Source: Acrocarpospora phusangensis (GTDB taxonomy: Bacteria > Actinomycetota > Actinomycetes > Streptosporangiales > Streptosporangiaceae). From it: a DNA stretch of 64,000 nt. Location: positions 1-64,000 of the forward strand of contig NZ_BOOA01000030.1 of assembly GCF_016862995.1 (NCBI RefSeq), given 5' to 3'. A program made the position numbers and the translations under genes. Below, one piece after another: positions 7,880-24,191 of this stretch. Position 1 is the stretch's first letter. Each line of letters starts with the position of its first letter. The notes beneath the pieces were generated by a model that was given only the letters and a program-made list of their open reading frames with translations, ran no database searches and was not told the DNA's origin.

Positions 7880-7981
7880 GGAGAGAGCATAAAGAATCCC
7901 GACATTCAGGCCGAGGGTGGCATCGAATCGCCCTGTCCCGCCCAGTAAGGTCGTCGCAGATCGAGCGTGAGGGAGACGGCC

Positions 7982-8836
7982 ATGGAGTTCGACCACGTTT
8001 CCGTGCCCGGCGGCGACCTGCGGATCGCGCGGTTCGGGAAGGGGCCCCGGCTGATCATCGCGGTGCACGGAATCACGGCGTCGCTGATGGCCTGGCAGAA
8101 GATCGGCTCGTCGCTGCCGGAGGACTGGTCCATGGTCGCCATGGACCTGCGCGGGCGCGGCCACAGCGCGAACCTCCCCGGCCCGTACGGGCTGCGCCGC
8201 CACGCGGAGGACGTCGAGCGGGTGGCCGCCCACGTGGGGGCGGACGAGACGACGGTCCTGACCGGCCATTCCATGGGCGCCTACGTGGCGGTCCTGCACG
8301 CGACCGAGCGGCGGTACGCCCGTACGGTGCTGGTGGACGGCGGCCTGCCGTTGCCGGTGCCGCCGGGGATCACGGTGGACGACCTGCTGGAGCTGAGCCT
8401 GGGCCCGGCCATCGCGCGGCTCAGCCAGACCTTCACCGACGTGGAGGACTATGTCGGGTTCTTCCGGCAGCACCCGGCGCTGTCGGACTGGTCCCCGGCC
8501 ATGGAGGAGTACGTCCGCTACGACGCGCTGGAGACCGCCGACGGGGTCCGCTCCCGCGTACGGGAGGACGCGGTCCGCACGGACGGCCGGGAGCTGCTCA
8601 CCGAGGCGGACACGATCGGCGCGGCCCTGGCCGGCGTCAAGTCGCCGCTGCTCCTGCTGCGGGCTCCGCGCGGCCTGCTGAACCAGCCGATCGGCCTGCT
8701 GCCCGACGACCTCGCCGCGACCTGGACCGCGCGGGTGCCGGAGCTGCGCGACGAGGTGGTCCCGGACTGCAACCACTACACGATCGCGTTCGACGACCGC
8801 TGCGCCCGGATCGTGATTGATCGGCTGACTCTTTGA
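7982..8836 (+). CDS. Alpha/beta-fold hydrolase
   Basis: A 284-residue alpha/beta hydrolase. The nucleophile elbow GHSMG is near residues 97-101, the oxyanion-type HG motif (VHGITAS) near residue 30, and the likely catalytic His is in CNHYTIAF near the C-terminus. ATG 7982 is chosen because GAGGGAGA sits just upstream; a GTG 15 bases earlier is less likely. There is no signal peptide, so it is probably cytoplasmic. Substrate cannot be inferred; esterase, lactonase or haloperoxidase-like activities all occur in this family. Confidence 0.87.
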   Translation: MEFDHVSVPGGDLRIARFGKGPRLIIAVHGITASLMAWQKIGSSLPEDWSMVAMDLRGRGHSANLPGPYGLRRHAEDVERVAAHVGADETTVLTGHSMGAYVAVLHATERRYARTVLVDGGLPLPVPPGITVDDLLELSLGPAIARLSQTFTDVEDYVGFFRQHPALSDWSPAMEEYVRYDALETADGVRSRVREDAVRTDGRELLTEADTIGAALAGVKSPLLLLRAPRGLLNQPIGLLPDDLAATWTARVPELRDEVVPDCNHYTIAFDDRCARIVIDRLTL

Positions 8837-8888: not shown

Positions 8889-9515
8889 GTGGCGAGCGAT
8901 CCGGAACTCATCAATGTGCTGCTCGATCATCTGGAGGATGTGCGCGCACGGGTGAGCGCGGCCCGGCGGACCCGGCTCGACGCCCTCGTCCGGGACCTGC
9001 GCGCGGCGGGCGGGGACACCGCGGCCATCAGCGACCTCGCCGTCGAACTGCGCATCGAGCTCCAGCTGGCCGGCCTCCCCCAGGACCATCCGGTCCGGCG
9101 CGCCCTTCCCACCGGCACGCGCCTGAACCCGGCGTTCCCCGTCGTGGACTGGGGCGACGTGATCGCGCGGCTCCAGCCCGAGGATCTGCGGCGGGTCATC
9201 CAGCGGCGGCTGCTGGGCGCCCCGGCGTACGGAGTGGACGAGGTGCCCGAACCGGACGAACCCGACCTAATCCGGCTGGAACGGGCGGACGGCGAGGTAC
9301 GGCTGCCCGCCTTCCAGTTCCAGGAGTCGCGGCAGGCCCGGCCGCTGGTGCTGCGCATCAACCGTCTGCTGGAGGCGGACGAGGATCCGTGGGGGGTCGC
9401 GGGCTGGTGGCTCGGGCCCAACGCCTGGCTGGGGGCCGTACCGGCCGACCTGCTGGACCAGCCGAGGGAACTGGATCTGATGCCGGCCGCCCGCGCGATC
9501 TTCGAGGGAGCCTGA
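8889..9515 (+). CDS. Probable antitoxin of a RES-type toxin-antitoxin pair
   Basis: A 208-residue protein directly upstream of a RES-domain gene and overlapping it (TGATG). Its C-terminal part (about residues 135-205: RINRLLEADEDPWGVAGWW, then NAWLG and PADLLDQ) resembles the MbcA/ParS/Xre toxin-binding domain (DUF2384) of antitoxins paired with RES toxins. The N-terminal half is helical, with no helix-turn-helix that I can recognise with certainty. GTG 8889 is the assumed start and lacks a strong ribosome site. The assignment rests mainly on gene pairing plus the C-terminal resemblance. It is longer than typical MbcA-type antitoxins. Confidence 0.62.
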   Translation: MASDPELINVLLDHLEDVRARVSAARRTRLDALVRDLRAAGGDTAAISDLAVELRIELQLAGLPQDHPVRRALPTGTRLNPAFPVVDWGDVIARLQPEDLRRVIQRRLLGAPAYGVDEVPEPDEPDLIRLERADGEVRLPAFQFQESRQARPLVLRINRLLEADEDPWGVAGWWLGPNAWLGAVPADLLDQPRELDLMPAARAIFEGA

Positions 9516-10183
9516 TGCCGGTCCCGATGCCGCCGACACGCTGCCCGAACACGCCGCGGGCCCAGGTCGTGCCGGCCGGGACGCGCCTGTGGCGGGTGCA
9601 CGACGCCGCGTACTCCAGCGCCGCCTTCAACCCGACCCAGACCGACCCGCACTGGGGCGGCGGCCGCTTCGACAGCACGAAGCTCTGCGAACCGCCCTAC
9701 TCCTACCTGTACGCGGCGCACGATCGCGGCACCGCCCTGGCCGAGACGGTCATGCGGGCGATCCCCTTCTCGGACCGGGGCCACTGCCCGGTGCCGCGTA
9801 AGGCGATCAAGGGGCGGAAGCTGTCCCGGATCGAGCTGGTCCGGGACGTCACCGTGCTGGATCTGGTCAAACCCGAGGACTTCACCGGGGTGTGCGCGAA
9901 GATCTCCCTGATCCGCGCGGAGGCCGCCGAGTACGGGCAGACCCGCCGGTGGGCGGACTGGCTGCGCCGCCACCAGGCATGGGCGGAGGGCCTGCGCTGG
10001 CAGTCCAACCCCAGCATGACCAACCTGGTCCTGGTCCTCTTCGGCGACCGCTGCGACGCCGTACGGCCGGTGCCGGGCGAGGACGCCGCCCTGGACGATC
10101 CCGGCTTCCTGGATGAGCTCAACGACGCTCTGCGGCCGTACGGGGGTTATGTGCATCCGCCTAGGAGACGCCCTGGTGGGTGA
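9515..10183 (+). CDS. RES-domain protein, predicted NAD+ phosphorylase/glycohydrolase toxin
   Basis: A 222-residue RES-domain protein. The family name comes from conserved Arg, Glu and Ser residues, and all three candidates are visible: the Arg in GTRLWRVHD near residue 26, the Glu in GTALAETVMRA near residue 77, and the Ser in QSNPSMTNLVLV near residue 170. Characterised RES toxins (MbcT, Res) destroy NAD+ and stop growth. Translation is coupled to the upstream antitoxin gene by an A-sharing TGATG overlap. The 3' end overlaps the tail of the convergent CHAT gene by 23 bases, so antisense transcription may couple the two modules. Confidence 0.85.
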   Translation: MPVPMPPTRCPNTPRAQVVPAGTRLWRVHDAAYSSAAFNPTQTDPHWGGGRFDSTKLCEPPYSYLYAAHDRGTALAETVMRAIPFSDRGHCPVPRKAIKGRKLSRIELVRDVTVLDLVKPEDFTGVCAKISLIRAEAAEYGQTRRWADWLRRHQAWAEGLRWQSNPSMTNLVLVLFGDRCDAVRPVPGEDAALDDPGFLDELNDALRPYGGYVHPPRRRPGG

Positions 10184-13100
10184 AGGCGGCCCAGATCGCC
10201 GGGTCGGCGAAGTCGAGTTCGCCGAGCACGTCGGCGAGGTCCCCGCGTAGGTCCTCCGGGATACGCCGCCCCGGGTCCAGCATCCAGCGCTGGGTCCGGG
10301 CGAGTGCCGCGCCGGGCTCCGCCTCGCTCAGGAAACGGTGGAACATCAGCATCATCACCGCGGTGCGCACGTCGTCGCCGATGGCCCATCGCGACCCGAC
10401 GACCCCGCGCGCGCCGGTCGCCTGGAAGGCCGTGGCCAGGGTCAGCGCCTCGTCGTGGTCGCCGTCGGACAGGTCGCTCGTACAGGCGGAGAGGACCACG
10501 AGGCCGCCGCCCTTCCCCGCCCTGCCCAGCAGCCGCTGGACGGGCAGTTTCTCGCCGTCCGCGACCACCAGCGCGGAGTCCGCCGAGACCACGGAGGAGG
10601 TGGCGTGCCCGGCGAAGTGCAGCACCGAGTAGCCGCCCGTGGCGACGCCCAGGACCGCCTCGGCGGACGCGGCCGGGACCTCGTCGCCGCCGAGCCACTT
10701 GCCCAGCCGTCTCGCGGCCGGGTAGCGGTGGCCGAACAGCTGGGCGCACTCCCAGATCGCCCACGCCAGGTCCGGGTTGGAGATCAGCACGGGCGCCTGC
10801 CCCGGGGGTGACCACTGCCGCTCCGCGGCGGCGGCGAACTGCCGGGCGGACGCCGCGTACGAGATGGTCGCCCGCTGGCAGGCACGCACCTGCCCGTCCC
10901 GGGACCCCAGGGTGGCGGGCACGTACGCGGCGTGCCAGGGCACGATGCCGAGGGTTCCGGCCGGGACCAGCACGATTGACGGCTCGGGCTCGCCGATCTC
11001 CGCCAGGATCGTGGTCAGCGCGGCCTCGCCGGCCCAGTCGCACAGCTCCTCCAGCGCGTGCCGCCAGCGGAGCTCGCCCAGCTCCACGCCGCTGACCAGC
11101 TCGTTCTGGGCGCGCTGGTAGCGGTCGAGGCGGCTGCCCCGGCCCACGTCGAGGCCGGGCAGGACGGTGGTCGTGACGGTCACGTCCGGGCGCACGATCA
11201 GGGCCAGGCCGGGACAGAACTCGCCGCGCGGGAGCAGGTAGACCAGAGCGTGGCGGCCGGCGCCGCGCAGGGCGCGGGCGATCTCGGCGGGAGTCGGCGG
11301 GGTGAGCAGCTCGGCGAGGGGGGTGCCCTCGATGGCGGCCAGGACGCGGTGGCGGAGGTCGCCGGGGATCATCAGGCCGGAGATGCGGACGCGGCCCTCC
11401 GGGCCCAACTCGACGGCGGCGCTCTCCCAGGGTGAGGCGGCCGTCTCCGTGGCCAGGTGGGTCTCCCACTCCAGGGCCAGGGCGTCGCGGCCCCGGGCGT
11501 GGAGCAGGGCGGGCAGGGCGTCGGCGGCCGTGGCGGCGTGCAGGACCATGGCGCGGCCGAGTTCGAGGGCTTCCACGGCCGCCTCGGGCCAGCCGTCGGC
11601 GAGCGCCCAGCCCATGGTCTCCAGCGCGTCGTCGCGTACGGCCTTGGACATGGCCAGGCCGCGTTCCGCGCCGGTCTGGAGGAGCACGTCGGCGAGGCGT
11701 TCGCGCAGGGCGCGCAGGCCGGTGTCCACGGCGCGCGGGTCCCCCTTGAGCCGGTACGCCTGCGCCAGGTCCACCAGGAGGATCGGGTAGACGCCGTCGA
11801 GGGGCCCGGTGGCGCGGTCGCGGATGACCGCCTCCAGGTGGGCGATGCCCCGGTCCAGGTCGTCCGGCCGGCCGCCGGTGCGGTGGCGCTGGATGAGCGC
11901 GCTGCCGAGGACGTAGCGGTGTGCCCCGGTCTCGCCCAGGTAGGTGTCGGGCGCGGCGACGACCTCGGTGAGGGTCTGGATGCCCTGGTCGAGCAGGTGG
12001 CGGTCGCCGGCCGTCAGGCCCTTCGTGACGGCCGCGAGACCGGCCTGGCCGCGCAGCGCCCTGCCGTACAGGTCGTCCGTCGTGACGCCGGCGCCGGCGG
12101 CCATCAGCTGGTCGAGCGCGCCCGACATGGCCCGGGGGTCGCCGCTGTGCAGCGCGCGCACGCCGTGCGCCCAGGCCCGCAGCGAGTGCACCAGGCGCAG
12201 GTCCGGATGGCCCGCGGGGGTGAGCGCGACGATCCGCTCCAGGTCGGCGAGGAGTCGGTCGGCGGTGACGGGGTCCTGCCGCTGGAGGTACTGGCCGAAG
12301 CGGACCATGACCCGCAGCAGCCAGACCGCCCGCCGGTCGAGCGTGCCGGGCGCGTACTCCGGCGCGCCGCTGGCCGCGAGTACGACGTCCACCTCGTCCA
12401 GGTAGTGCCCGGCCGCGTCGAGGAGCGCGAGGTCGCGGGTGGTGCCGTACCGGTCGGTCATGGCGGTGGCGGCGATGAAGAGCAGCGGGACGCGCAGGGG
12501 GTTCTCCCGGCCGTACGCGTCGACGGCGACGCGCAGGTGCTCGATGCCCCGGTCGTAGTCGGCGCCGGAGCTGTCCCTGGCCGCCCGCGCCACGTACGCG
12601 CTGCCGAACACCACGTGCGCGGCGGCGGCGTCGAGCCCGGGAGCCGGCACGGCCGGGTTCACCACGGCGGGCAGGTCGGTGAGGATGCGGTCCAGGTCGG
12701 CGCCCATCGGGTCCACCCGGAGCGCGGTGAGGACCGCGCCGGACAGGAACACGAACGTGCGGGCCCGGAGCGGGTCCCCCTCGGGCATCCCGGCCAGGGC
12801 CGCGACCAGCAGCTCGACGGCCTCCGCGCAGTCGGCCTTCGCGCCGAGGGCCCCGGCGCGCTGCCCGACGGACGCGCCGAGGCGGCTCAGCAGCCACGGC
12901 CGCAGCATGTGCCCGTCGGGCAGGTCCGCGAGGACGCCTCGCAGTTCGGCGATCCGCGCGTCCAGCTCGGGGCCCGCGCCCAGTACCGGGTCCGACTCCT
13001 CCTGGAGCACGGCGGACAGGCTGGACAGCTGCGCCCGCCGGGGGTCGCCGGCGGGCAGGCGGTCCGCCGCGGCGCGCACGGCCGCCGTCGTCCCGGAGGA

Positions 13101-14033
13101 GCTCCCGCCGTTGAGGCCGGACTCGGCGAGCGTGACCATCGACAGCAGCGCGGCGATGTCCTGGTCCTGGGGGGTCAGCTCGGCGGCGCGGGCCAGGTGC
13201 CGCCGCGCCTCGGTGATCCGGTCCAGGTTCGCGGCCAGGTCCGCCGACTGCGCGAACCGCAGCGCCGCGCCGAGATCCAGCTCCCCCGGCGGCGCGAAGC
13301 CGCGTAACAGCAGTTCGGCGATGAAGCCGTGGGCCCTGGCCTCCAGCGGGGTGCCCGCCACGGCAGGCTCGGCGATGGTCCGGCGCGCCCAGTCGGCCGC
13401 CGCCGCCACGTCCCCCCGGGCTTCGTGCAGCGAGGCCAGGTTACGGCTGAGATCGATCCGCAGCCCCTCGTCCTCGATCTGCCCGTGCGCCGAGGTCATC
13501 AGCTCGGCCGCCCGCCCGGTCTCCGCCGCGTACGCCGGGTCGGTGGCCGCCCGGAAGCCGAGCGCCAAGCCGAGCCGTGCCCTGACCTCGGGCTCGTCCT
13601 GGACGTCGAGCAGTTCCTCCAGGCAGGCGATGATCCGGCCGAGCGGCCCCGGCGCGGGATGCTCGCCCTCCTGGGTGAGGTACTCGATCGCGAGCTGGTA
13701 CAGCAGCTCGGCCCGGCCGTCGTCGCCGGGAGGAAGCAGGGTGAGCGCCTCCTCCAGGTAGCCGGTGGCGTGCGCGCCGTCGGCGGGGTCGTGGGTGAGC
13801 GCGAACGAGCAGGAGCGGGCCAGCCCGGCCAGTTGGAGCGCTCCGGCGTCCCGGTCGCGCGCCAGGAGCCAGTCGGCGTGCTCCAGCAGCTCCCGTACGT
13901 CCTCGGGCTCCAGGTCCTCGGTCTCGGCGAGCAGGTCCACCAGCGCCCAGGCGAGGTCCCACCGCCACACCGCCTCGTCAGCGGTCCCGCGCCGGCTCCG
14001 CAGGGCCGCCACCCGCGCCGCGAATTCACTCAC
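10161..14033 (-). CDS. CHAT-domain caspase-like protease with TPR-type repeats
   Basis: A 1290-residue protein. The C-terminal CHAT domain carries the protease dyad: His in LHFAGHA near residue 1141 and Cys in LSACTSD near 1181, followed by the conserved GARGVVGSRW. The first thousand residues are alpha-helical, TPR-like repeats rich in Ala and Leu. CHAT proteases are cysteine peptidases of the caspase/gasdermin-cleaving class and often act as effectors in conflict systems. GTG 14033 is preferred to an ATG at 14081 because GAGGGGGCGG precedes it. The gene is divergent from the Hsp70/GTPase operon, and its last 23 bases overlap the RES gene. The substrate is unknown, and no gasdermin-like gene is seen nearby. 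Confidence 0.9.
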   Translation of the reverse strand: MSEFAARVAALRSRRGTADEAVWRWDLAWALVDLLAETEDLEPEDVRELLEHADWLLARDRDAGALQLAGLARSCSFALTHDPADGAHATGYLEEALTLLPPGDDGRAELLYQLAIEYLTQEGEHPAPGPLGRIIACLEELLDVQDEPEVRARLGLALGFRAATDPAYAAETGRAAELMTSAHGQIEDEGLRIDLSRNLASLHEARGDVAAAADWARRTIAEPAVAGTPLEARAHGFIAELLLRGFAPPGELDLGAALRFAQSADLAANLDRITEARRHLARAAELTPQDQDIAALLSMVTLAESGLNGGSSSGTTAAVRAAADRLPAGDPRRAQLSSLSAVLQEESDPVLGAGPELDARIAELRGVLADLPDGHMLRPWLLSRLGASVGQRAGALGAKADCAEAVELLVAALAGMPEGDPLRARTFVFLSGAVLTALRVDPMGADLDRILTDLPAVVNPAVPAPGLDAAAAHVVFGSAYVARAARDSSGADYDRGIEHLRVAVDAYGRENPLRVPLLFIAATAMTDRYGTTRDLALLDAAGHYLDEVDVVLAASGAPEYAPGTLDRRAVWLLRVMVRFGQYLQRQDPVTADRLLADLERIVALTPAGHPDLRLVHSLRAWAHGVRALHSGDPRAMSGALDQLMAAGAGVTTDDLYGRALRGQAGLAAVTKGLTAGDRHLLDQGIQTLTEVVAAPDTYLGETGAHRYVLGSALIQRHRTGGRPDDLDRGIAHLEAVIRDRATGPLDGVYPILLVDLAQAYRLKGDPRAVDTGLRALRERLADVLLQTGAERGLAMSKAVRDDALETMGWALADGWPEAAVEALELGRAMVLHAATAADALPALLHARGRDALALEWETHLATETAASPWESAAVELGPEGRVRISGLMIPGDLRHRVLAAIEGTPLAELLTPPTPAEIARALRGAGRHALVYLLPRGEFCPGLALIVRPDVTVTTTVLPGLDVGRGSRLDRYQRAQNELVSGVELGELRWRHALEELCDWAGEAALTTILAEIGEPEPSIVLVPAGTLGIVPWHAAYVPATLGSRDGQVRACQRATISYAASARQFAAAAERQWSPPGQAPVLISNPDLAWAIWECAQLFGHRYPAARRLGKWLGGDEVPAASAEAVLGVATGGYSVLHFAGHATSSVVSADSALVVADGEKLPVQRLLGRAGKGGGLVVLSACTSDLSDGDHDEALTLATAFQATGARGVVGSRWAIGDDVRTAVMMLMFHRFLSEAEPGAALARTQRWMLDPGRRIPEDLRGDLADVLGELDFADPAIWAAFTHQGVS

Positions 14034-14196
14034 CGTCCGCCCCCTCACGATATAGAGCGAACTATAGTGCTTGATCCACACAAAGGCATGGGTAACTAAA
14101 ATTGACTTATCCGCTATATGCGACTAATCCATATTGCGCGTGGTCGGGAAATTGCTGACACTTGCGCCGTGGTGTCCCCGAGGATCAGGACCCGGC
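14034..14196. promoter_or_regulatory. Divergent promoter region, CHAT gene / Hsp70-GTPase operon
   Basis: This AT-rich stretch separates two divergent transcripts. It contains TTGACTTA (14102-14109), identical to the octamer at 8833-8840 before the antitoxin gene, and short TATA-like pieces (TATAG near 14051, TATAG near 14064). AGGATCAGGA (14181-14190) is the ribosome site for the GrpE-like gene. Coordinated control of both transcripts from here is likely; exact -10 and -35 elements could not be assigned. Confidence 0.45.
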
Positions 14197-14730
14197 ATGC
14201 TGCCTGAGCAGGACCAGGAAGTTGATCTAGAGAACAGCCTGGCCCGGCTGGCCGAACAGGTCGCCCGCGAGCACGAGCGCGCCGCGCACCGCGAACAGAT
14301 CATCGACCGCCTGCACGCGGAGAACCAGGACCTGCGCCGCGGCCTGCTCCAGGAGGCCCTCACCCCGGTCCGCTCCGGCCTCTACCGCCTGTACGACACC
14401 GTCACCCGCGAAGCCGCCCGCCGCGCCACGCTGGACCGGGGCGACGACGTGGTCCCGCTGCTGGAGGCCCTCGCCGAGGAGGTGGCCGAGGTGCTCGCCC
14501 GTACCGGGGCGGAGCGCCTGGAGGTCTCCCCCGGCGACCCGTACGACCCGGCCCTGCACCGCCCGCTGCGCACCGAGCCGGGCGAGGACGGCCGCGTCAC
14601 GGCGGTGGTCTCGGACGGCTTCCGCCTGGCCGAACAGGACCGGGTGCTCCGCAAGGCGGCGGTGGCCATCGGCAAGGCGCCCGAGCAGACGGGCGAAAGC
14701 GACACCCCGGACAGCGAGGAGAACGCCTGA
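14197..14730 (+). CDS. GrpE-like nucleotide exchange factor
   Basis: A 177-residue GrpE-type protein, the predicted ADP/ATP exchange partner of the Hsp70 encoded next. The N-terminal half (about residues 8-55) is a charged coiled coil, typical of the GrpE dimer stalk. The C-terminal part contains GAERLEVSPGDPYDPALH and VTAVVSDGFRLAE, which match the GrpE beta-domain pattern of a conserved parameter-type sequence around an H residue. ATG 14197 follows AGGATCAGGA by six bases. Its stop overlaps the Hsp70 start (TGATG), implying translational coupling. It is divergent from housekeeping GrpE and probably dedicated to this operon. Confidence 0.8.
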   Translation: MLPEQDQEVDLENSLARLAEQVAREHERAAHREQIIDRLHAENQDLRRGLLQEALTPVRSGLYRLYDTVTREAARRATLDRGDDVVPLLEALAEEVAEVLARTGAERLEVSPGDPYDPALHRPLRTEPGEDGRVTAVVSDGFRLAEQDRVLRKAAVAIGKAPEQTGESDTPDSEENA

Positions 14731-16313
14731 TGGCCGTGCACGGGATAGACCTGGGCACCACCTACTCCTGCATCGCCAGCGTGGACGACGTGAGCCGCCC
14801 GACGGTGCACCGCAACCAGGAGGACACCGACACCACGCCCTCGGTGGTCTTCTTCGAGACGCCCGACAACGTGGTGGTCGGCCAGACGGCCAAGGACAGC
14901 GCGGTCATCGAGCCCGATCTGGTGGTGAGCCGGATCAAGCGCGACATGGGCCACGAGGTCACCAGGACCATGCACGGCAGGCCGTACACGCCGGAGGAGA
15001 TCTCCGCGTTCGTGCTGCGCAAGCTGGCCGCGGACGCCCGGACGGCGACCGGGATCCCGGTGGACGACGTGGTCATCACCGTGCCGGCGTACTTCGGCGC
15101 GGCCGAGCGGGACGCCACCCGCAAGGCGGGGCGGATCGCCGGGCTGAACGTGATCGACATCATCTCCGAGCCGATCGCGGCGGCGATCACCTACGGCGTG
15201 CTCAACCCGGGCCAGGACGCCCGCATCCTCGTGTACGACCTGGGCGGCGGCACCTTCGACACCACGGTCATCACGCTCAGCGGCGGCGACATCGAGGTGG
15301 TCTGCACCGACGGCGACCACGAGCTCGGGGGCGCGGACTGGGACGACCGCCTGGTGGAGCATCTGGCCGAGCGGTTCCGCCAGGAGCACCCGGACGTGGC
15401 CGACCCGCTCGACGACAAGCAGACCGAGCAGCAGCTGCGCCGCGACAGCGAGGAGCTGAAGAAGACCCTCTCCACCCGGACCCGGCACGTGGTGCGGGTC
15501 ATGCACGAGGGCCGGGTGGCCAAGGTGGAGATCACCCGGGAGGAGTTCGAGGCGCTCACCCGCGACCTGCTGGACCGCACGATCGACATCACCCGCAAGA
15601 CGCTGAACACCGCGCGCGGCAAAGGCGTGGCGGGTTTCGACCATTTAGTCCTGGTCGGCGGCTCGGCCAAGATGCCCGCGGTGACCGAGGCGCTGACCAA
15701 GGAGCTCGGCGTCACGCCGCGCCTCCAGGACCCGGACCTGGCCGTGGCGAAGGGCGCCGCCCTGTACGCCTTCGAGGAGACCTACCGCCGCCTGCTGGAC
15801 TCCGGCGACCGGGCCGGCGCGGAGGAGATGGCCGCCAGGGCGGGCCTGTCCGACGGCCAGCGGCAGGAGATCGCCGGGCGCACGATCAGGACGGTCGCCT
15901 CCCGCGCGTTCGGCATCAAGGCCACCGCCAGCAACACCCGCCGCGAGTACGTGGCGCACCTGGTCAACGCCAACGACCCGCTGCCCGCCGACGTCACCGA
16001 GGGCTTCGCCACCCTGGACGACTTCCAGACCCGGGTGGCCATCGAGGTGATGGAGCAGGCGGGCGCGGTCGCCTCCGACCTGATCGAGGACAACAACAAG
16101 ATCGCCGAAGGGGACCTGAAGATCCCGCCGGACAAACCGGCCGGTTTCCCGATCGAGGTCACCTTCACCCTGGACACCTCGGGCCTGCTGCACGTCACCG
16201 CCAGGGAGAACGAGACCGGGGAGCGGCTGGAGCTGAGCGTGCAGATCGGCGGCATGTCCGAGGAGGAAGTGGCGGAGTCGCGGGCGGCGCTGTCCCGCGT
16301 CCAGGTGAGCTGA
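14730..16313 (+). CDS. Hsp70-family chaperone lacking the lid
   Basis: A 527-residue Hsp70. The ATPase domain has the phosphate-1 motif IDLGTTYS (residues 6-13), the phosphate-2 motif YDLGGGTFDT near 168-177, and the adenosine motif LVGGSAKMP near 308. The beta-sandwich substrate-binding part follows (about 390-510, with LDTSGLLHVTARENETG). The protein ends there, about 90-100 residues short of DnaK, so the helical lid is missing. That suggests fast substrate exchange or a switch-like role rather than general folding. It is coupled to the GrpE-like gene upstream, and the next gene begins four bases downstream. No J-domain HPD motif is seen in the operon. Confidence 0.92.
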   Translation: MAVHGIDLGTTYSCIASVDDVSRPTVHRNQEDTDTTPSVVFFETPDNVVVGQTAKDSAVIEPDLVVSRIKRDMGHEVTRTMHGRPYTPEEISAFVLRKLAADARTATGIPVDDVVITVPAYFGAAERDATRKAGRIAGLNVIDIISEPIAAAITYGVLNPGQDARILVYDLGGGTFDTTVITLSGGDIEVVCTDGDHELGGADWDDRLVEHLAERFRQEHPDVADPLDDKQTEQQLRRDSEELKKTLSTRTRHVVRVMHEGRVAKVEITREEFEALTRDLLDRTIDITRKTLNTARGKGVAGFDHLVLVGGSAKMPAVTEALTKELGVTPRLQDPDLAVAKGAALYAFEETYRRLLDSGDRAGAEEMAARAGLSDGQRQEIAGRTIRTVASRAFGIKATASNTRREYVAHLVNANDPLPADVTEGFATLDDFQTRVAIEVMEQAGAVASDLIEDNNKIAEGDLKIPPDKPAGFPIEVTFTLDTSGLLHVTARENETGERLELSVQIGGMSEEEVAESRAALSRVQVS

Positions 16314-16316
16314 GCG

Positions 16317-18989
16317 ATGCCCTTCGACGAGCGGCGCTATCTGCGGGAGGTGCTCGACCCGGCCCGCCAGGCCGGTTCGCCCCCCGAGGACCTGCGGGTT
16401 CGTTACCAGCTGCGCCAGGACATGACCCCGGCCCAGGTGGCGGAGACCGTCCGCGAGGTGCGCCAGTGCTGGCGCCGGCAGCGGCAGCTGCTCAAGTTCC
16501 GCAAGCTCGTCGACCGGCTGGAGGCCGACCACGCCGGGTACAGCCCGATCTTCGAGGCGGCCGCGAACGGCGACACCGGGCCGCTGCTCGCGGCTCTCCG
16601 CCAGGCCGGTGAGCAGGATCGGCGGCGTCTCTCGGACCTGCGGCGGCGGCTGGACGACGCGGCGGGCGCGCTGCGGCTGCTGGCGCCGGAGGTGGTGGCG
16701 GCGATCGCCCGGTCCGCGGGGGTCGGCCGGGAGGAGGCGGAGGCGCTGGCCGCCGGGCTCGGCATCGAGATCCGCGAGCCCGACCTGCTCCCCGGCCTGC
16801 CTCCCTATCCGGGGTACGGCCGCGCCCGCGAGGCCCTGGACACCCTGCGGAAACGGCACCTCGCGGAATTCGTCCAAGGCGACCGACAATTCCCGATATT
16901 TGCCCCGTCGGGGGATTTATCCGAGCAGGTTCGGGAGGTCGAGGCGGACTGGCAGCGGCGTACCCGGGGGCCGTGGACGATCTCGGCGGACACGGTGCTG
17001 GCCGCCCTGCGCGGCGTGGACGACCCCGCCGCCCTGCTCCGGTACGACCTGGTGGCCCGGGTGCGCGAACGCGTACGCGAGCACCCCGGCGACCAGACGC
17101 TGCTGCGCTACGCCGTGGAGGACCTCGGGCTCGACCCCGGCGAGGCGCGGCGGGTGGTCTTCGCGGTCCGGCAGGAGACCGGCGGACCCAGCGGCCCCCA
17201 GGCTCGGCTGCGCGAGCTGGTGGACGCCGGGGAGATCCAGGCCGCCGCCGACCTCGCGGCGACCCTGCCGGAGGCCGGCGACCTGGGCGAGGAGATCGCC
17301 GCCCGGCTCGCCGCGGCCGTCCGGCTGCGGGACCAGGCCCTGACCGCCACCGACCCGGACGAGGCGTGGCTCCTGCTGGCCGACGCGCTCCGCCGGGTCC
17401 CCGACCTGCCGGGCGCGGCCGGCCTCCTGGCCCGCCTGTCCCCCCACCCCGCCCGCGACACCCACGCCGAACCCCACGACGAGACAGTCGTGATCACCTG
17501 GTCCCCGTCCCCGTCCAAGGCGGGCGAAATCACCTACGAAATCCACCGCAACGGCGCCCCCCTCCGCGACCAGCCCGGCCCCAACTCCGGATCCAGCTCG
17601 GGCTCCGGATCCAGCTCGGGCTCCGGGTCCGGATCCAGCTCTGGTCCGGGCTCCGGTTCTGGGCCCGGCTCCGGATCTAGCTCTGGGTCCGGATCCGGCG
17701 CTGGGTCCGGATCTGGCTCGGGCTCAGGTTTTGGGTCCAGCTCGGGCTCCGGGTCCGGCTCAGGCTTTGGCCGCGTAGTGGACCGCGCGCCCCCCGTCAA
17801 CGTCCCGCTGACCTACGCGGTGGTCGCCCGCCGTGGTGAGGCCACCGCCAACCCGGCCCCGGCCGCGCCCGTCGTCGTCCTGCCCGAGCCGCGCGACCTG
17901 CGGATCACCGCCGGGGACGGCGTCGTCACCGGCCGCTGGACCACCCCGCGCGGGGCGATCGGCGTGGTCGTGCTCCGCGACGGCCGGCCCGTGGCCGTGG
18001 ACGGCTCCGGCTTCCGCGACCTGGCCGTGCGCAACGGCGCCGGCCACCACTACCTCGTCCGCGCGGTCTACCCCACCCCTGACGGAGCCGGCGTGAGCAC
18101 GCCGGGACTGCACCGCACGGTCACCCCGCACGCGCGGCCCGAACCCGTGCCCGAGCTGGCGATCACCCCGGCCCCGGACGGACGGCTCCTGCTCAGCTGC
18201 CCCCAACCGGCCACTGGCCTGCTGGAGTTCCGGCTGTTCAAGGGCGCGCCGCCGTGGCCGTACGGGACGACGCTGGCGCTGGGCGAGATCCACCGGTCCG
18301 GGAGGGCGCTGGCGGCGACGCCGGTCAGGGAGGGGCACCTGATCAAGCCGGAGACCGGGGTGGTGCTGGCGCTGACCGTGGCGGGTGAGCTGGTCACCGT
18401 CGGGGCGTACCGGGAGTATGTCAACCTGACCGCGCCGAAGCGGGTCACGGCCGAGCGGCGGGGCGGCACCGTGCTGGTCGGGCTGGACTGGCCGCCCGAC
18501 GTGCCCGAGGTGGAGATCGCCTGGGCGTCGCGGCGGGAGCTGGTGAGCGCCGCCGCGTACCGGGCGCAGGGCGGCGTGCGGCTGGACGCGCCCGAGGACG
18601 AGCCGCTCACGATCGAGGTGGTGCCCAGCGCGCTGCTGCGCGGGGAGCGGGCGCGCGGCCCGGCCGTCCGGGTGGAGCTGCCCGCCGCCGTGCCCGTCCG
18701 GTACGACCTGGCCACCGAGGGCCCGCTCTGGCGGCGGAACCTGGTCGTGGCGGTGAGCGCCGACCGCCCGGCCACCGTGGCGCGCCTGGTCCTTGTGCTC
18801 AAGCCGGGGCTCATCCAGCCGCTCGGCGCCGCCGACGGGCGGGTGCTCGGCGAGTGGACCGACCTGGCCACGCCCGCCCGCCTGACGCTGCCCGTGCCCC
18901 GCCAGGCCAAGCCCTACTGGCTGCGATGTTTCGCCGAGGGAGACGTCGCGCTGCTCGACCCGCCGGTCCGCCGCATGAAGATGGGGTGA
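16317..18989 (+). CDS. Large helical/fn3-like protein with Gly-Ser insert
   Basis: An 890-residue protein of unknown function, always next to Hsp70 in such operons as far as I recall. Residues 1-380 are helical and charged, with an [20 protein letters not shown]-type segment near the N-terminus. From about 392 a fibronectin-III-like beta domain begins ([19 protein letters not shown]). It is interrupted by a Gly-Ser tract (about 423-485) and resumes with [13 protein letters not shown]. Two or three more beta-rich repeats follow ([34 protein letters not shown]). No signal peptide, transmembrane helix or catalytic motif is visible. It may be an Hsp70 client, adaptor or scaffold linking the chaperone to the GTPases. 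Confidence 0.7.
17587..17770 (+). repeat. Degenerate tandem repeat encoding a Gly-Ser tract
   Basis: About ten imperfect copies of a unit close to TCCGGATCCAGCTCGGGC, with 6-base slippage (TCCGGG) between some units. They encode alternating [10 protein letters not shown] residues within the fn3-like protein. The tract sits inside a predicted surface loop of one beta domain. Its low-complexity, in-frame structure suggests replication slippage and possible length variation between strains. Confidence 0.9.
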
Positions 18990-18992
18990 ATC

Positions 18993-20147
18993 TTGATCAC
19001 CTGCCCGTACTGCTTCGCGCGCGTCGCGGAGAACCGCGTCGCCTTCCGGTGCTCCGGCGGCCGGGGCGGGTGCGAGGCGCGGGCGGACGAGGTGCTCGGC
19101 CGGCATCGGGGCGGCACGCCGCCGTCGCTGCCGCCGGTCTTCTCGGTGCGCAGGCCGGGACGGCGGGCGGCCTGCCCGGGGTGCGCCAGGGAGACCAGCC
19201 GCCGGGCCTGCCCGGAGTGCCACAGCAGGCTGGCCGCCGAGTACTGCGCCAACCCCGGCAGGATCGTGGCGCTGGTGGGGGCGAAGGGGTCGGGCAAGAG
19301 CACGTACATCGCGGTCCTGCTGCACGAGCTGATGAACCGGGTGGGCGCCGAGCTGGACGCCTCGCTGACCCCGTGCGACGACCGCACCATCGAACGCTAC
19401 CGCCAGGAGTTCGCCCGCCCCCTGTACGGCGAGCACCGCCTGCTGCGCGCCACCCAGTCCGCCGTCACCGACCTCAACCGGGACCCCCTCGTCTACCTGC
19501 TCACCCGGACCATACGGGGACGGCTGCGCACCCGGGCCGAGTCACTCACGCTGGTGCTGTTCGACACGGCGGGCGAGGACCTGCGCAGCCGCGACGTGAG
19601 CGAGCTGCACCTGCGCTACCTGCGGGCGGCGGACGCGATCGTCTTCCTGGTGGACCCGCTGGAGCTGCCGGGCGCGCGGGCGGCGCTGAACGGGACCGCG
19701 CTGGCGCGCAGCGGCGGCCTGGACGACGACCCGGACAGCGACCCGCTGAACGTGATCGCCAGGGTGACCGAGCTGCTGCGCCGGACCGGCGGGCCGCTGA
19801 AGGTGCCGGTGGCGGTCGCGCTGAGCAAGATCGACGCGCTGCGGCCGTCGCTGGCCCGGCAGTCGGCGCTGCACCGGGCCAGGAGGCCGTCCGGGGCGCT
19901 CGACCTGGACGACCGCGAGGCCGTGCACGAGCAGGTGCTGGCGCTGCTGGAGGAGTGGCAGGCCGGGATGGTCGGCCGCTACCTGCGGCAGAACTACACC
20001 GACTTCGCGCTGTTCGGGCTGTCCGCGCTGGGCGCGGTCCCGGAGGCCGAGTCGGTCGGCGCGGGCGGGGTCCGGCCCTACCGGGTCGAGGATCCCCTGC
20101 TGTGGTTGCTCTACCGGTTCAAGATGCTCGACGGAGTCCGGGGGTAG
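18993..20147 (+). CDS. Zinc-ribbon TRAFAC-type GTPase (first of a pair)
   Basis: A 384-residue soluble protein. Two Cys-rich ribbons open it: CPYC near residue 4 paired with later Cys residues, and CPGC near 61 with CPEC near 73. A P-loop GTPase domain follows, with Walker A GAKGSGKST (96-104), Walker B/G3 FDTAGED (190-196) and a G4-like SKID (278-281). It fits the double-GTPase group, in which two distantly related GTPases are co-encoded with a GAP1-type protein. The start is TTG 18993 with GGGGTGA just upstream; TTG gives the first ribbon its proper N-terminus. It lies four bases after the fn3-like gene and five before the GAP1-like gene. Confidence 0.83.
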   Translation: MITCPYCFARVAENRVAFRCSGGRGGCEARADEVLGRHRGGTPPSLPPVFSVRRPGRRAACPGCARETSRRACPECHSRLAAEYCANPGRIVALVGAKGSGKSTYIAVLLHELMNRVGAELDASLTPCDDRTIERYRQEFARPLYGEHRLLRATQSAVTDLNRDPLVYLLTRTIRGRLRTRAESLTLVLFDTAGEDLRSRDVSELHLRYLRAADAIVFLVDPLELPGARAALNGTALARSGGLDDDPDSDPLNVIARVTELLRRTGGPLKVPVAVALSKIDALRPSLARQSALHRARRPSGALDLDDREAVHEQVLALLEEWQAGMVGRYLRQNYTDFALFGLSALGAVPEAESVGAGGVRPYRVEDPLLWLLYRFKMLDGVRG

Positions 20148-20151
20148 TCGC

Positions 20152-22356
20152 ATGGCCTGGCAGCTCCACTACACCTCGGCCGAGTCCGGGCCGACCGGCC
20201 GGTCGGGTTTCCAGTTCGTCGCGGAGACGCGGGACACCGGCCGGCCGGGCCTGCACGACCTGGCCGCCCCCCACATGACCTACCGCCCGCCGCCCAGCGC
20301 CCCCCTCGCCCCCACGCCAGCCGAGATCACGACATTTCCGGTCTCGCTGACGTACGAGCCCGGGCTGCTGTCCCGCTGCGTCTACCTGGGCCGGGACTAC
20401 TCCGGCCGGTACGGCAACTTCCTGGGGCACGCGCTGGTGCTGGGCGAGGGCGACCTGGTCGGCTCCCGCCCGATCGAGTTCTGGGCCGCGCCGTTCTGGT
20501 CGGACGCGCCCGCGAACGGCGCGCTGGACGAGCTGACCGAGCTGACCCCCGGCTCCGCCGTCGACCCGGAGGCGCTCGGCGGCTGGCTGTCGGCCGGCGG
20601 CCCCGGCTCCTACGAACGCCTCGCCGAACTGCTGGAGACCGTGCGCAGGTCGCTCACCCGCGGGTACGGCCGGCTGGTCCTGGTCGCCGAGGACGTCGAG
20701 GAGGTGGTCCGCTGGATCGCGGTCATCTCGTTCTCGCTGCCCTGGGCGGCGGCGGCGCGGCTGTCGTTCGCCACCTACAGCGCCGACCCGGCCGCCTGCC
20801 GGCAGCTGATCGTCGGCACCACCCCGGACGTGTGGATCCCCTCCGACATCGACGCCAGCGTGATCCGCCTGGACGAACCCCCCGCGCCCGTACGGACCGG
20901 GCGGTTCGCGGCCACCGCGGTCGGGTTCTGGCGCCGTACGGACCTGGACGGGCTGGACGCGCTCGGCGAGCTCGGCGACGCGGAGCCGGAGACGGCGGCG
21001 GCGCTGATCGCGCTCTGCCGGGGGGACGGCACGGTGGGGCCGGAGGAGCAGCGGGCGGTCATCCCGCTGGTCGAGCGGGGGCTGCCCGACTGGGCCTGGC
21101 GCATGCTCGGGCGGTGGGCGGGGCTGCTCGGCCGGGAACTGGCCGCCGCCGTCGCCGAGCACGGTCCGCCGGAGGCCGCCGATCCGTGCGCGGCGCGCTG
21201 CGCGGCGTTGGCCATGCGCGATCCGGCGCTGCCGATTCCGTCGCGGCTGATGCGGGCGCCGTACCTGGCCGCGCTGACGACGGCGGCGGGTTCGGCGCTG
21301 GGCGAGGCGGACACGCCGCCGCTGGTGGTCGCGGTGCTCCGCGTCGCCGACGTGTACGGCCTGCGGCTCGACCCTCGGGCCGTGGAGGACGCGGCGACGG
21401 CCGCCATCCAGCCGGACTCCGCCGAACTGGCCGAAGCCATCGAACGCACTCCTTCCGACTGGCGAGAAACCCTTTTAGCCGGATTTATCGGTGGATTGGA
21501 GGAAGCATCCCCGGAGTTGCGCGAGCGGCTGCTCACGCCCGAGGTGAGCGCGCTGATCGCCGGCCGCGACTGGACGACCGCGCCCAGGACCGGCGCCCTC
21601 GTGCTCCGCCTGGAGGCCGCCGCCGGACGCCGCGACCGCGTGGACGCCACGATCGAGCTGCTCGGTTTCGCCGAGGACCGGGAGGAGACCCTCAAGGCGC
21701 TCTGGCGGGCGCAGCCCACCGCCGCCGAGTGCGCCCGCCTGATCGAGGCGCTCGGCCCGGAGATGGACGCCTCCCCGCAGCTCAGCGAACTCCCCGCGCG
21801 GGCGTTCCTGACCGGCGGCCTGAAGGGCCCGGACGTGCTGAAACTGGCCGAGAAGGTCAGGGACGGCCTGTCCGGCTACCCGGCCGACGACGCCGAGGCC
21901 ACCCTGATCGCCGCCCGCCTCGCCCAGGCCCCCACCCCGGTTGAGGCCGCCCGCGCGGTAGACGCCCTGACCGAGCTGACCCGCGAGGGCCACCCCGACC
22001 TGATGCCGATGACCCGGACCACCGCCGCCAAGGCCCTCGCCGGGAAGGACCCCCGGTTCAGGACCACGGTGGTGAAATCGGTGACCGAGCACGCCCGCCG
22101 CTGGCTGATCGACGCCTGGCTCACCGCCAACCGCAACCGCGACCAGCAGATCGCCCTGCTGGAGGTGGCGATCCGGCTCCGGACGGCCGGGGTGATCATT
22201 CCCCGGCTGGACGAGTGGGCCCGCTCCCAGGTGAGCAACTGGTCGATGTTCGGCTCGGTCGAGGCCCACTTCAAACGGGACGCGGAACTCGCGGCGGGGC
22301 TGCGCGAGCTGACCGGCCAGAAACGCCGCCGCATCTTCGGCCGGGGCGACGGCTGA
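20152..22356 (+). CDS. GTPase-associated protein 1 (GAP1)-like
   Basis: A 734-residue protein without transmembrane segments. The N-terminal 150 residues (QLHYTSAESGPTGRSGFQFV, then RYGNFLGHALVL) match the pattern I recall for the GAP1-N2 domain. The rest is helical, corresponding to the middle and C-terminal GAP1 domains. Members always sit beside paired GTPases and are thought to bridge or regulate them; the biochemical activity is unknown. The name means GTPase-associated protein, not a demonstrated GTPase-activating protein. It shares one base with the next gene (TGATG), so expression stoichiometry with the second GTPase is probably coupled. Confidence 0.75.
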   Translation: MAWQLHYTSAESGPTGRSGFQFVAETRDTGRPGLHDLAAPHMTYRPPPSAPLAPTPAEITTFPVSLTYEPGLLSRCVYLGRDYSGRYGNFLGHALVLGEGDLVGSRPIEFWAAPFWSDAPANGALDELTELTPGSAVDPEALGGWLSAGGPGSYERLAELLETVRRSLTRGYGRLVLVAEDVEEVVRWIAVISFSLPWAAAARLSFATYSADPAACRQLIVGTTPDVWIPSDIDASVIRLDEPPAPVRTGRFAATAVGFWRRTDLDGLDALGELGDAEPETAAALIALCRGDGTVGPEEQRAVIPLVERGLPDWAWRMLGRWAGLLGRELAAAVAEHGPPEAADPCAARCAALAMRDPALPIPSRLMRAPYLAALTTAAGSALGEADTPPLVVAVLRVADVYGLRLDPRAVEDAATAAIQPDSAELAEAIERTPSDWRETLLAGFIGGLEEASPELRERLLTPEVSALIAGRDWTTAPRTGALVLRLEAAAGRRDRVDATIELLGFAEDREETLKALWRAQPTAAECARLIEALGPEMDASPQLSELPARAFLTGGLKGPDVLKLAEKVRDGLSGYPADDAEATLIAARLAQAPTPVEAARAVDALTELTREGHPDLMPMTRTTAAKALAGKDPRFRTTVVKSVTEHARRWLIDAWLTANRNRDQQIALLEVAIRLRTAGVIIPRLDEWARSQVSNWSMFGSVEAHFKRDAELAAGLRELTGQKRRRIFGRGDG

Positions 22357-24020
22357 TGCCGTTCCTCGCCTTCGTGGTGTGGGTCGCCGCGATGTGGCTC
22401 GGGTTCGTCGCGTTTCCCGTCGTGTTCGCGCTCGCCCTGGCGGCCACCGTGCTGGCGGCGGCCGGGATCTACTTCCGGCAGGCCGGCCGGGTGCTGCTGC
22501 CGGATGTGACCGACGGGCACTCCCCCATAGGACTTCCCGGCCAGGGCGGGGACCCCGCGTACCGGCACTATCTGGTGACCCAGGTCTGGCGGGACTGGTG
22601 GGCGATCACGCGCGGCGCGTACCCGAAGATCGTGATCACCGCCGCCGACGCGGTCAGGGCCACCACCAAGGCGCTCATCGGCGACGCGCGCGGGGTCTTC
22701 CTGTTCCCGATCTGGCTGGCCGTCTGCGCCGGCGTGATCCTCGCCGCGCTGCCGCTGGCCGCGCTCGGCCTGCTGATCACCGGTGTGTACGCGCTGACCG
22801 TCGCCGCGGGCATGCTGGCCTGGCTGGCCTGCGTCACCGTGCTGCGCGCCGTGGAGCAGGTCTTCACGCTGGTCCGGCGCATCCTGCAGGCCTGCCCGTA
22901 CCCGGGCTGCTACGCGAGGATCACGCTGCCGGCGTACGCCTGCCCGGCCTGCGGCGAACGCCACCGCGCCCTCACCCCCAACCTCAACGGCGCCGTACGG
23001 CACGCCTGCCGGTGCGGGGCCCGGCTGCCCACCACGATCCTGCTGGGGCGGCACCGGCTGCAGGCGCACTGCCCGGAGTGCGACCGGCTCCTGCCCGCCA
23101 GGATCGGCCGCGTACGGGTGGAGCCGCTGCCCTTCGTGGGCGGGCCCGACGCGGGGAAGACCACCTTCATGGCGCTGGCCGTGGACGCGCTGCTGGGCGC
23201 CTCCGGCCTGCGCGCCGAGTTCGTGGACCAGGGCGACGAGCTCACCTTCCACCAGCTCAAACGGCAGCTCGCCGACGGGCGCATGATCAAGACGGGGACG
23301 CAGCTGCCGAAGGCGGTGATGCTGGACGTGACCCTGCCCCGGGAGGGGAGCCGGATCCTCTACCTGTTCGATCCGTCGGGGGAGCATTACACGGGGGCGA
23401 GCGAGGTGGAGGCGATGAGTTATCTGGCGCACGGGGAGGCGCTGCTCATTCTGGTGGATCCGTTCGCGCTGCCCGCCGTACAGGACAGTCTGGTGAGCGG
23501 GGATCGGGAGCTGCTGGCCGCGAACGGGCTGCGGCCGTCGCGGGAGGATCCCGCCGACACCGTGCACCGGGTGCGGAACGAGCTGGCCGGGCGGGCGGAC
23601 GGCGGGCGGCAGCGGCGGATCGCGGTCGTGGTCACCAAGGCCGACCTGCTGCGGCAGACGGCGACCGGCGGGGGCGCACAGGATGATCCGGCCGGGTGGC
23701 TGGCCGGCATGGGCATGGGCAATCTGACGCGGGCGCTGGCGGCCTCCGGCGCCAAGGTCCGTTACTTCCTGTCCGGCATACCGGCGGACGCCGCCGAGAT
23801 CCTGGACCTGCTCACCTGGCTGATCGGCCTGCGTCCCGGCGCCAAGCAGCCCGCCGGCGAGACCCGGCCGCGGCGGCCGTGGATTCCCCGGAGCCGGCCG
23901 CCGGAGCGTCCTCCGCTCAGTTACACAGTCGCCCGCCGCCTCATCTTCGGGGTCACCGTCGTGCTGTCGCTCGCGGCCGTGGTCCTGCTCGCGCTCGCCG
24001 GGTGGGCCTGGCTCAGATAG
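22356..24020 (+). CDS. Membrane-anchored zinc-ribbon GTPase (second of a pair)
   Basis: A 554-residue protein. Hydrophobic segments lie at about residues 3-40 and 113-165, with a last one at about 531-552. Between them are Cys pairs of zinc ribbons (CPACG at 196-200, CRC at 218-220, CPEC at 239-242) and a GTPase domain. The GTPase has P-loop GGPDAGKTT (262-270), a Walker B-like LFDPSGEHY and a G4-like TKAD near 430. ATG 22356 overlaps the previous stop; an open frame extends further upstream but lies inside the GAP1-like gene. This partner would anchor the complex to the membrane, whereas the first GTPase is soluble. It ends the operon. Confidence 0.83.
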   Translation: MPFLAFVVWVAAMWLGFVAFPVVFALALAATVLAAAGIYFRQAGRVLLPDVTDGHSPIGLPGQGGDPAYRHYLVTQVWRDWWAITRGAYPKIVITAADAVRATTKALIGDARGVFLFPIWLAVCAGVILAALPLAALGLLITGVYALTVAAGMLAWLACVTVLRAVEQVFTLVRRILQACPYPGCYARITLPAYACPACGERHRALTPNLNGAVRHACRCGARLPTTILLGRHRLQAHCPECDRLLPARIGRVRVEPLPFVGGPDAGKTTFMALAVDALLGASGLRAEFVDQGDELTFHQLKRQLADGRMIKTGTQLPKAVMLDVTLPREGSRILYLFDPSGEHYTGASEVEAMSYLAHGEALLILVDPFALPAVQDSLVSGDRELLAANGLRPSREDPADTVHRVRNELAGRADGGRQRRIAVVVTKADLLRQTATGGGAQDDPAGWLAGMGMGNLTRALAASGAKVRYFLSGIPADAAEILDLLTWLIGLRPGAKQPAGETRPRRPWIPRSRPPERPPLSYTVARRLIFGVTVVLSLAAVVLLALAGWAWLR

Positions 24021-24191
24021 GCAATTCCCGTAATTCTGATTTATCGCGATTAATTGTGGCGGTATTCGCGCTGTTTGACCGGAGTGCGTTTTGCCTAATG
24101 CGCGCTCGGGCAGCATCGGGGCGGCGCGGAAATGGCAGGCGATTTCTCCCGCGTTCGCGCCCGACCATCACAATCTCAAGAGGAGACGAAA

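Follow-up and report, generated by a model that had tools for sequence, protein, structure and literature searches.

An antitoxin-RES-CHAT unit head to head with a GAP1-N2/HSP70 double-GTPase operon in Acrocarpospora phusangensis

Double-GTPase systems organized around GAP1 proteins are widespread in multicellular bacteria, and the conflict role ascribed to them is a prediction of Kaur, Burroughs, Iyer and Aravind (2020; PMC7159879). As stated in an initial annotation of the locus treated here, we found no experimental characterization of double-GTPase/GAP1 systems in the literature searched. Several RES toxins consume NAD+ (PMC12457610), the TPR-CHAT protein of CRISPR systems is an RNA-activated protease, and toxin-antitoxin-chaperone (TAC) systems pair a chaperone with an antitoxin (PMC7159879; PMC9098466). 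Here we describe a 64,000-nucleotide stretch of the soil actinomycete Acrocarpospora phusangensis (contig NZ_BOOA01000030.1; the whole stretch is referred to as the window), in which genes resembling all of these lie side by side: a GTPase, GAP1 and chaperone operon (module A, 14134-24020) and, head to head with it, an antitoxin-RES-CHAT unit (module B, 8889-14081). We give about an even chance to the explanation that the two modules are joined, the first as trigger and the second as a CHAT-gated RES toxin circuit. The initial annotation had taken 10161..24020 as the whole locus, an interval that ends one gene early, as RES and its antitoxin adjoin CHAT at 8889-10183. Its model of CHAT as the executor therefore omits the probable payload of that step, the antitoxin-RES pair.

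The CHAT caspase-like protease is encoded on the minus strand (10161..14081; PF12770, 4.6e-33), with a likely start near 14033 that was judged, like that of GrpE (14197), by aligning the window with three Acrocarpospora loci. Its FAGHA and SACTS motifs are intact, and the His and Cys are invariant across 11 aligned sequences, the window included. The CHAT domain is preceded by a long helical-repeat-like region. Pfam gives no TPR match, and designed TPR proteins are among the matches of the subfamily profile; searched against the PDB, the same profile retrieves a “CHAT domain protein” (7x8a, 8.7e-8) and Csx29 (7y9x, 0.003). The 3' ends of the CHAT and RES genes overlap by 23 bases. The predicted RES-domain toxin (9515..10183, plus strand; PF08808, 1.3e-17) has a reading frame that opens at 9389 and an ATG at 9515 that shares one base with the stop codon of the antitoxin gene. 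With residues counted from 9509, R29 and E79 are each conserved in 18/18 aligned sequences and S166 in 16/18, Thr replacing Ser in the other two. When the RES protein was compared with PDB sequences, the matches were mostly to TAL-repeat chains, covered about 35 residues and were taken as spurious.

The antitoxin candidate (8889..9515, plus strand, 208 aa) consists of an N-terminal part of about 100 aa and a predicted C-terminal Xre/MbcA/ParS-like RES-binding domain. It has no Pfam family and no convincing NCBIfam match, its profile found no convincing match in the PDB, and family scans found no helix-turn-helix (HTH) family in it or in two relatives. The prediction comes from a profile-profile comparison with eight antitoxins adjoining other RES genes (81 columns near the C-terminus; prob 97, E 7.8e-11), and the protein recurs next to RES in relatives. 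A family scan of five of those eight gave PF09722 matches for four, each under the cut-off. Elsewhere in the host genome (G000:C61:47575-48487) there is another RES gene, whose antitoxin belongs to the family of the window antitoxin; a contig end cuts it and leaves a CHAT partner not assessable. The host genome has 13 CHAT matches, two of which share one reading frame. In another member of the family (G051) we noted 31 CHAT matches, whereas the 16 further non-Acrocarpospora genomes searched have 1-8 each.

The seven genes proposed in the initial annotation are all present, and Pfam names six of them above its curated cut-offs, including the DO-GTPase, GAP1-N2/M and CHAT domains; the FNIII-like (fibronectin type III) protein is the exception. 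Module A, all on the plus strand, comprises GrpE (14134..14730; PF01025, 1.4e-12), an Hsp70 of 527 aa (14730..16313; PF00012, 2.3e-105), the FNIII-like protein (16317..18989), DO-GTPase 1 (18993..20147; DO-GTPase2, PF19993, 1.2e-10), GAP1 (20152..22356; GAP1-N2, PF20013, 2.2e-34; GAP1-M, PF20014, 7.5e-23) and the membrane-spanning DO-GTPase 2 (22353..24020; PF19993, 1.4e-25). The minimal spacing described earlier holds (gaps of -1, 3, 3, 4 and -4 bases from GrpE through GTPase 2), with the correction that GTPase 2 starts at 22353, giving a 4-base overlap with GAP1, and not at 22215. The P-loops of both GTPases and the phosphate motifs of Hsp70 are intact. Judged from its length, Hsp70 apparently has no C-terminal lid; 48 open reading frames of like length, the window's included, passed a filter of 520-535 aa. 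Both DO-GTPases have Cys pairs that by eye look like zinc ribbons. In DO-GTPase 1 these cysteine motifs are N-terminal and there is no hydrophobic segment. Membrane anchoring of GTPase 2, as first annotated, is supported by the hydrophobic stretches seen in its hydropathy profile (1-42, 107-168 and 525-555), the first two of which could hold about four helices, counted by eye.

The FNIII-like protein has a helical N-terminal part (1-373), a linker (420-482) that is 89% G/S, and an FNIII-like array (about 485-890). The Pfam scan gives no FNIII match, and the assignment comes from fold: the model (pLDDT 86) returns FNIII-rich chains in Foldseek, with low whole-chain TM scores, ranks 1-2 being muscle thick-filament chains (4.0e-12, 1.0e-8) and rank 3 fibronectin repeats 7-10 (1fnf, 1.1e-8). 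A J-domain was sought, and the HPD motif is absent from the sequence. GAP1 (model pLDDT 90) has an alpha-helical, solenoid-like C-terminal region, and each of the 29 aligned members matches both GAP1-N2 and GAP1-M. Identifying it from Foldseek alone was rejected, as the matches were weak and mostly to solenoids; a second look at residues 1-327 (window 20152-21132) gave structural matches to DENND1B, DENND10 and folliculin. It is the product of the only GAP1-N2 gene in the host genome and is 88% and 78% identical to its counterparts in A. corrugata and A. catenulata.

The association of CHAT with antitoxin-RES recurs well beyond this locus. A search for the window CHAT in 200 genomes of the family found 23 places outside the Acrocarpospora locus, 22 of which were examined (G106:C152 was left out); two or three candidates were scored per genome in the CHAT protein searches, so that counts are lower bounds. 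Antitoxin-RES adjoins CHAT in 12 of these 22 loci; in 10 genomes outside the family, it adjoins 6 of the 12 CHATs. At loci of other CHATs, used as controls, the pair was seen in 1/27 (L204; Fisher p 7e-5), and comparison with the 20 region-fetched control loci alone gives p 6e-4; the 27 were seven from the host's own genome and 20 chosen among 130 matches, and at least seven have flanks of about 1.5 kb each side. A class-wide antitoxin profile search (394 genomes) gave ten near full-length hits, eight with a CHAT no more than about 3.5 kb away from the pair (5/7 when the three genomes that built the profile are left out). Five hits were partial: CHAT lies beside those of G235 and G283, none is in the stretch for G338:C27 and G374, and that of C61 is the one cut by a contig end.

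CHATs of the same subfamily also occur with related GTPase operons. Among 20 more distant GAP1-N2/HSP70 loci (stretches of 8.8-20 kb, two stretches for some loci), six have such a CHAT in or beside them, compared with an expected 0.16-0.32 (Poisson, P 2e-8 to 1e-6), an expectation for which CHAT counts of 5 were assumed, unmeasured, for G089 and G050. Eighteen further GAP1 loci gave a CHAT in one (G589), one cut short and 16 without, and the 15 of 15 GAP1-N2 loci examined in genus g46 have no CHAT. Several gene orders are seen: L150, L153, L154 and also L228/L229 read, on one strand, FNIII-GTPase-GAP1-GTPase-CHAT-Hsp70-antitoxin-RES, CHAT-Hsp70-antitoxin-RES is found in L150, L153, L154, L156 and L229, and L152 and L155 have GrpE-CHAT-Hsp70-antitoxin-RES, a unit which in L155 diverges from the core grpE, the arrangement that the window CHAT also has. 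In a quick tree of 55 CHAT rows, one 24-row group (support 100) contains all ten GAP1-labelled rows. Within it, one clade (SH-aLRT 99) is made up of an Hsp70-only CHAT and seven of the eight CHATs that have a distant GAP1 link; the second CHAT of L150 and the window CHAT sit in other clades, the latter nearest to unlinked paralogues. This placement indicates that the CHAT-GAP1 linkage either arose more than once or was repeatedly lost.

These arrangements bear on the model of the initial annotation, in which the GTPase/GAP1 operon acts directly through CHAT; RES and its antitoxin would then be incidental. CHAT after GTPase 2 in other genera would suit it, as would the divergence of CHAT from grpE across a shared, conserved intergenic region and the two GAP1-linked CHATs of G381, beside which RES was not detected. 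We consider it improbable all the same, since 7/8 GAP1-linked CHATs of the family sample (the exception being L151) come with antitoxin-RES.

The history of the window's own operon was followed in 80 loci collected with the GAP1 profile, in stretches that reach 10 kb each side of GAP1, so that farther CHATs would escape. The complete six-gene operon is present in 67 of the 80, and contig ends interrupt 12 of the remaining 13; in L057, the one incomplete locus without such a cause, GrpE was not detectable. The operon was apparently inherited vertically. In the window and three Acrocarpospora genomes, antitoxin, RES and CHAT occupy the gap between an alpha/beta hydrolase gene (7967..8836, plus strand; PF12697, 1.1e-13) and grpE, the hydrolase forming the left border of the inserted interval and a flank outside the system. 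Three Herbidospora loci (L044, L047, L051) have the order glnE, glutamine amidotransferase, alpha/beta hydrolase, grpE with nothing in between, and in L044 and L047 the grpE leader begins almost immediately past the hydrolase stop. The divergent CHAT/grpE intergenic region (14034..14196, no strand assigned) is strongly conserved in an alignment of the window with three Acrocarpospora loci, and the part of it nearest grpE recurs in Herbidospora, immediately past the hydrolase gene.

A number of observations weigh against a joined circuit. In the operon lineage CHAT is present in just 3/80 loci, all Acrocarpospora, and absent from the other 77; among the 68 loci with more than 3.5 kb before Hsp70, three have it and 65 do not. 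A second operon copy in A. corrugata (L054) has no CHAT, the CHAT of A. pleiomorpha is split across two frames in the assembly, and one of the five Acrocarpospora genomes, that of A. catenulata (G106), has no close copy of CHAT or antitoxin. The G106 contig stops inside GTPase 1 of the operon, so the interval site lies beyond view, and its more distant CHAT (C152) has a fragment of an antitoxin (49% over 53 residues) at a distance of about 1.1 kb. Within the window, CHAT is convergent to the antitoxin-RES pair and separate from it as an operon; with a convergent pair and a divergent operon, proximity is supported and co-transcription is not. Outside the family, only one of 10 genomes with this CHAT (G381) has CHATs beside a GAP1/HSP70 operon. 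In addition, 10/22 subfamily CHATs have no antitoxin-RES, the stretch examined contains no CHAT for two of the ten near full-length antitoxins, and 17 of 22 RES loci examined, from 51 places class-wide, have no CHAT nearby, the other five having one (these 22 are mostly best-scoring places, the window's own left out, and some are cut by contig ends). CHAT-RES distances are uncorrelated across 21 loci (Mantel rho 0.11, p 0.21) and the CHAT-antitoxin correlation is weak (0.29, p 0.018). Finally, one RES-Xre system, GndRX, is described as without canonical function (PMC12457610).

CHAT as a conserved component of this operon lineage was rejected on its presence in 3/80 loci. RES as a general partner of CHAT was likewise rejected, the link being confined to this RES/antitoxin subfamily, and co-divergence of CHAT and RES is not supported by the Mantel comparison. 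RES-antitoxin distances are clearly correlated (p 0.0005; the same 21 loci), and together the correlations suggest that parts may have been exchanged at times.

In one alternative the modules are neighbours with no functional link: a cassette of antitoxin, RES and CHAT would have inserted next to a stable GTPase/chaperone operon of long standing and would function independently of it. Eleven loci with CHAT and antitoxin-RES show no GAP1 in the stretch (L159, L160, L162-L164, L208, L210, L211, L213, L222, L224), the other genera seen have the operon without CHAT, and CHAT and grpE are divergent, with grpE keeping its own leader. Against this alternative stand the six of 20 distant GAP1-N2/HSP70 operons with a CHAT of this subfamily (about 0.2 expected), together with G589 and G381, and the position of CHAT 3' of GTPase 2 on the same strand in L150, L153, L154 and L228/L229. 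We regard it as somewhat unlikely, and as the strongest competitor of the joined circuit. The initial annotation had named a CHAT unlinked from the operon in relatives as a refutation, and this applies to the present operon lineage outside Acrocarpospora; the link recurs in related systems and is not accidental in general.

What CHAT does to the pair could also be the reverse of what we propose. CHAT might act as a brake, either by clearing unbound RES or by processing the antitoxin to its mature form; toxicity would then follow when CHAT is lost and not when it is activated. The loci in which antitoxin, RES and CHAT all run in one direction (L208, L210, L211, L224) would suit such a three-part neutralizing unit. 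The studied CRISPR TPR-CHAT is an activated protease, and L275 has an antitoxin-RES pair with no CHAT within its 20 kb stretch; with both pointing the other way, there is little chance that this reading is correct. At L274 the antitoxin was detected and RES was not, and an S8 peptidase lies near this CHAT-free antitoxin. Nine proteins neighbouring RES-free CHATs (L157, L158, L165, L166, L169) revealed no common alternative toxin: there are an APH kinase and a GH30 enzyme at L158, an acetyltransferase at L165, TetR and an M24 peptidase at L157 and a weak YwqJ-deaminase match at L166, and three proteins match no family. L158 (6591-13475) has the order CHAT-Hsp70-APH phosphotransferase with no GAP1 or RES in the stretch, possibly with a different payload.

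The GTPase operon itself may not be an immune device. It could instead serve in envelope stress or development, with module B adding a stress-induced growth arrest. The operon adjoins glnE in Acrocarpospora, Herbidospora, Planobispora and several Sphaerisporangium loci, a single comparison, of the window with A. macrocephala, gives dN/dS values of 0.14-0.32 for its genes, and one member of the DO-GTPase family is tied to psp envelope-stress operons (PMC11237479). Arguing the other way are the variable genes upstream of grpE (CHAT/RES, a PNP-type phosphorylase with a weak vWA match, and others) and the enrichment of GAP1-N2 systems in multicellular bacteria (PMC7159879), which lead us to hold this possibility for rather unlikely. 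The phosphorylase, of PNP/UDP type, is found upstream of grpE in Nonomuraea lactucae (L053:1124-4091), with the weak vWA match beside it, and in the second A. corrugata operon (L054:1183-3096), and the region looks like a variable slot. On the other side of the operon, directly 3' of GTPase 2, Herbidospora solisilvae has an ADP-ribosylglycohydrolase gene (L047:13806-14684) with homologues in two other Herbidospora loci, and the window has a gene (24132-25220, plus strand) for a ricin-B lectin domain protein with a signal-sequence-like N-terminus, for which no homologue was seen at the same place in the 80 GAP1 loci.

The joined circuit can be imagined as follows. At rest, RES would be restrained by the antitoxin, and Hsp70 may maintain the folded state of the complex. 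In module A, GAP1 would regulate the membrane and soluble GTPases, and the FNIII-like protein may bind the trigger. Once a trigger is sensed by module A, or by the repeat region of CHAT itself, CHAT would be activated and would cut the antitoxin; RES would then consume NAD+, and growth would stop or the cell would die. The NAD+ use of RES toxins, the protease activity of TPR-CHAT and the chaperones of TAC systems together suggest such a release of RES by CHAT, with the GTPase operon able to serve as the trigger and Hsp70 as a dedicated chaperone. The genes, their motifs, the interval seen in Acrocarpospora and missing from Herbidospora, and the recurring CHAT-antitoxin-RES and CHAT-Hsp70-GAP1 neighbourhoods are observed; antitoxin cleavage, the cleavage target and the trigger are the steps that we infer. 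A bolder version, which we think unlikely, would be an inflammasome-like suicide circuit in which a DENN/folliculin-like GAP1 and a Ras-like membrane GTPase pair are timed by Hsp70/GrpE until CHAT cuts the RES antitoxin and NAD+ is destroyed.

If CHAT does gate an NAD+-consuming RES and partners with Hsp70/GTPase switches, systems so far predicted would gain an assayable output, the loss of NAD+. The antitoxin would become the likely substrate of the protease, and a toxin-antitoxin pair would stand under a dedicated caspase-like protease. The inflammasome-like version, if true, would be a single system with a protease cascade, a toxin-antitoxin pair and a GTPase regulator of eukaryotic style, and a DENN-like GAP1 would bear on the origin of the eukaryotic GTPase regulators DENN and folliculin.

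No known defence system could be assigned, PADLOC giving weak local hits only, and an antitoxin-RES-CHAT module with optional Hsp70 was not found in the literature searched, the source tables of Kaur et al. aside. Among the nearest described systems, the eukaryotic DENN module and folliculin enter through the second-look matches of GAP1. With TAC systems that use SecB, the relatives at L150, L152-L156 and L229 have in common that the toxin-antitoxin operon includes a chaperone gene of its own; we do not file them as TAC, as the chaperone is Hsp70 and not SecB-like and a protease is added, and in the window Hsp70 belongs to the neighbouring operon. With the RES-Xre/MbcA/ParS toxin-antitoxin systems the window pair shares a RES domain with its R-E-S residues and, next to the toxin, an antitoxin whose C-terminal domain for toxin binding is related to theirs. 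It differs in having no recognized HTH in the antitoxin and in being coupled to a CHAT protease, and often, in relatives, to Hsp70. Csx29, the TPR-CHAT of Craspase, likewise carries a CHAT domain behind a repeat region, and the CHAT profile matches PDB CHAT-domain chains; no CRISPR partner was seen in the window, where CHAT adjoins a toxin-antitoxin pair. Neither RES nor CHAT occurs as a word in the text of PMC7159879, its Figure 6 and source data standing outside that statement. The closest relative is the actinobacterial GAP1-N2 theme with HSP70/GrpE described in that paper, which has two DO-GTPases, one of them membrane-spanning, GAP1-N2/M, an FNIII protein, Hsp70 and GrpE. The FNIII protein of the theme is typically fused to DnaJ or TPR; that of the window has a helical N-terminal part. 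With its two DO-GTPases, GAP1-N2/M, HSP70 and GrpE, the window operon belongs to this published theme, which bears out the kinship with predicted double-GTPase conflict systems proposed in the initial annotation. In that paper we saw caspase-superfamily effectors named for GAP1-N1 and none for GAP1-N2; in the window, a CHAT protease gene stands beside a GAP1-N2 operon.

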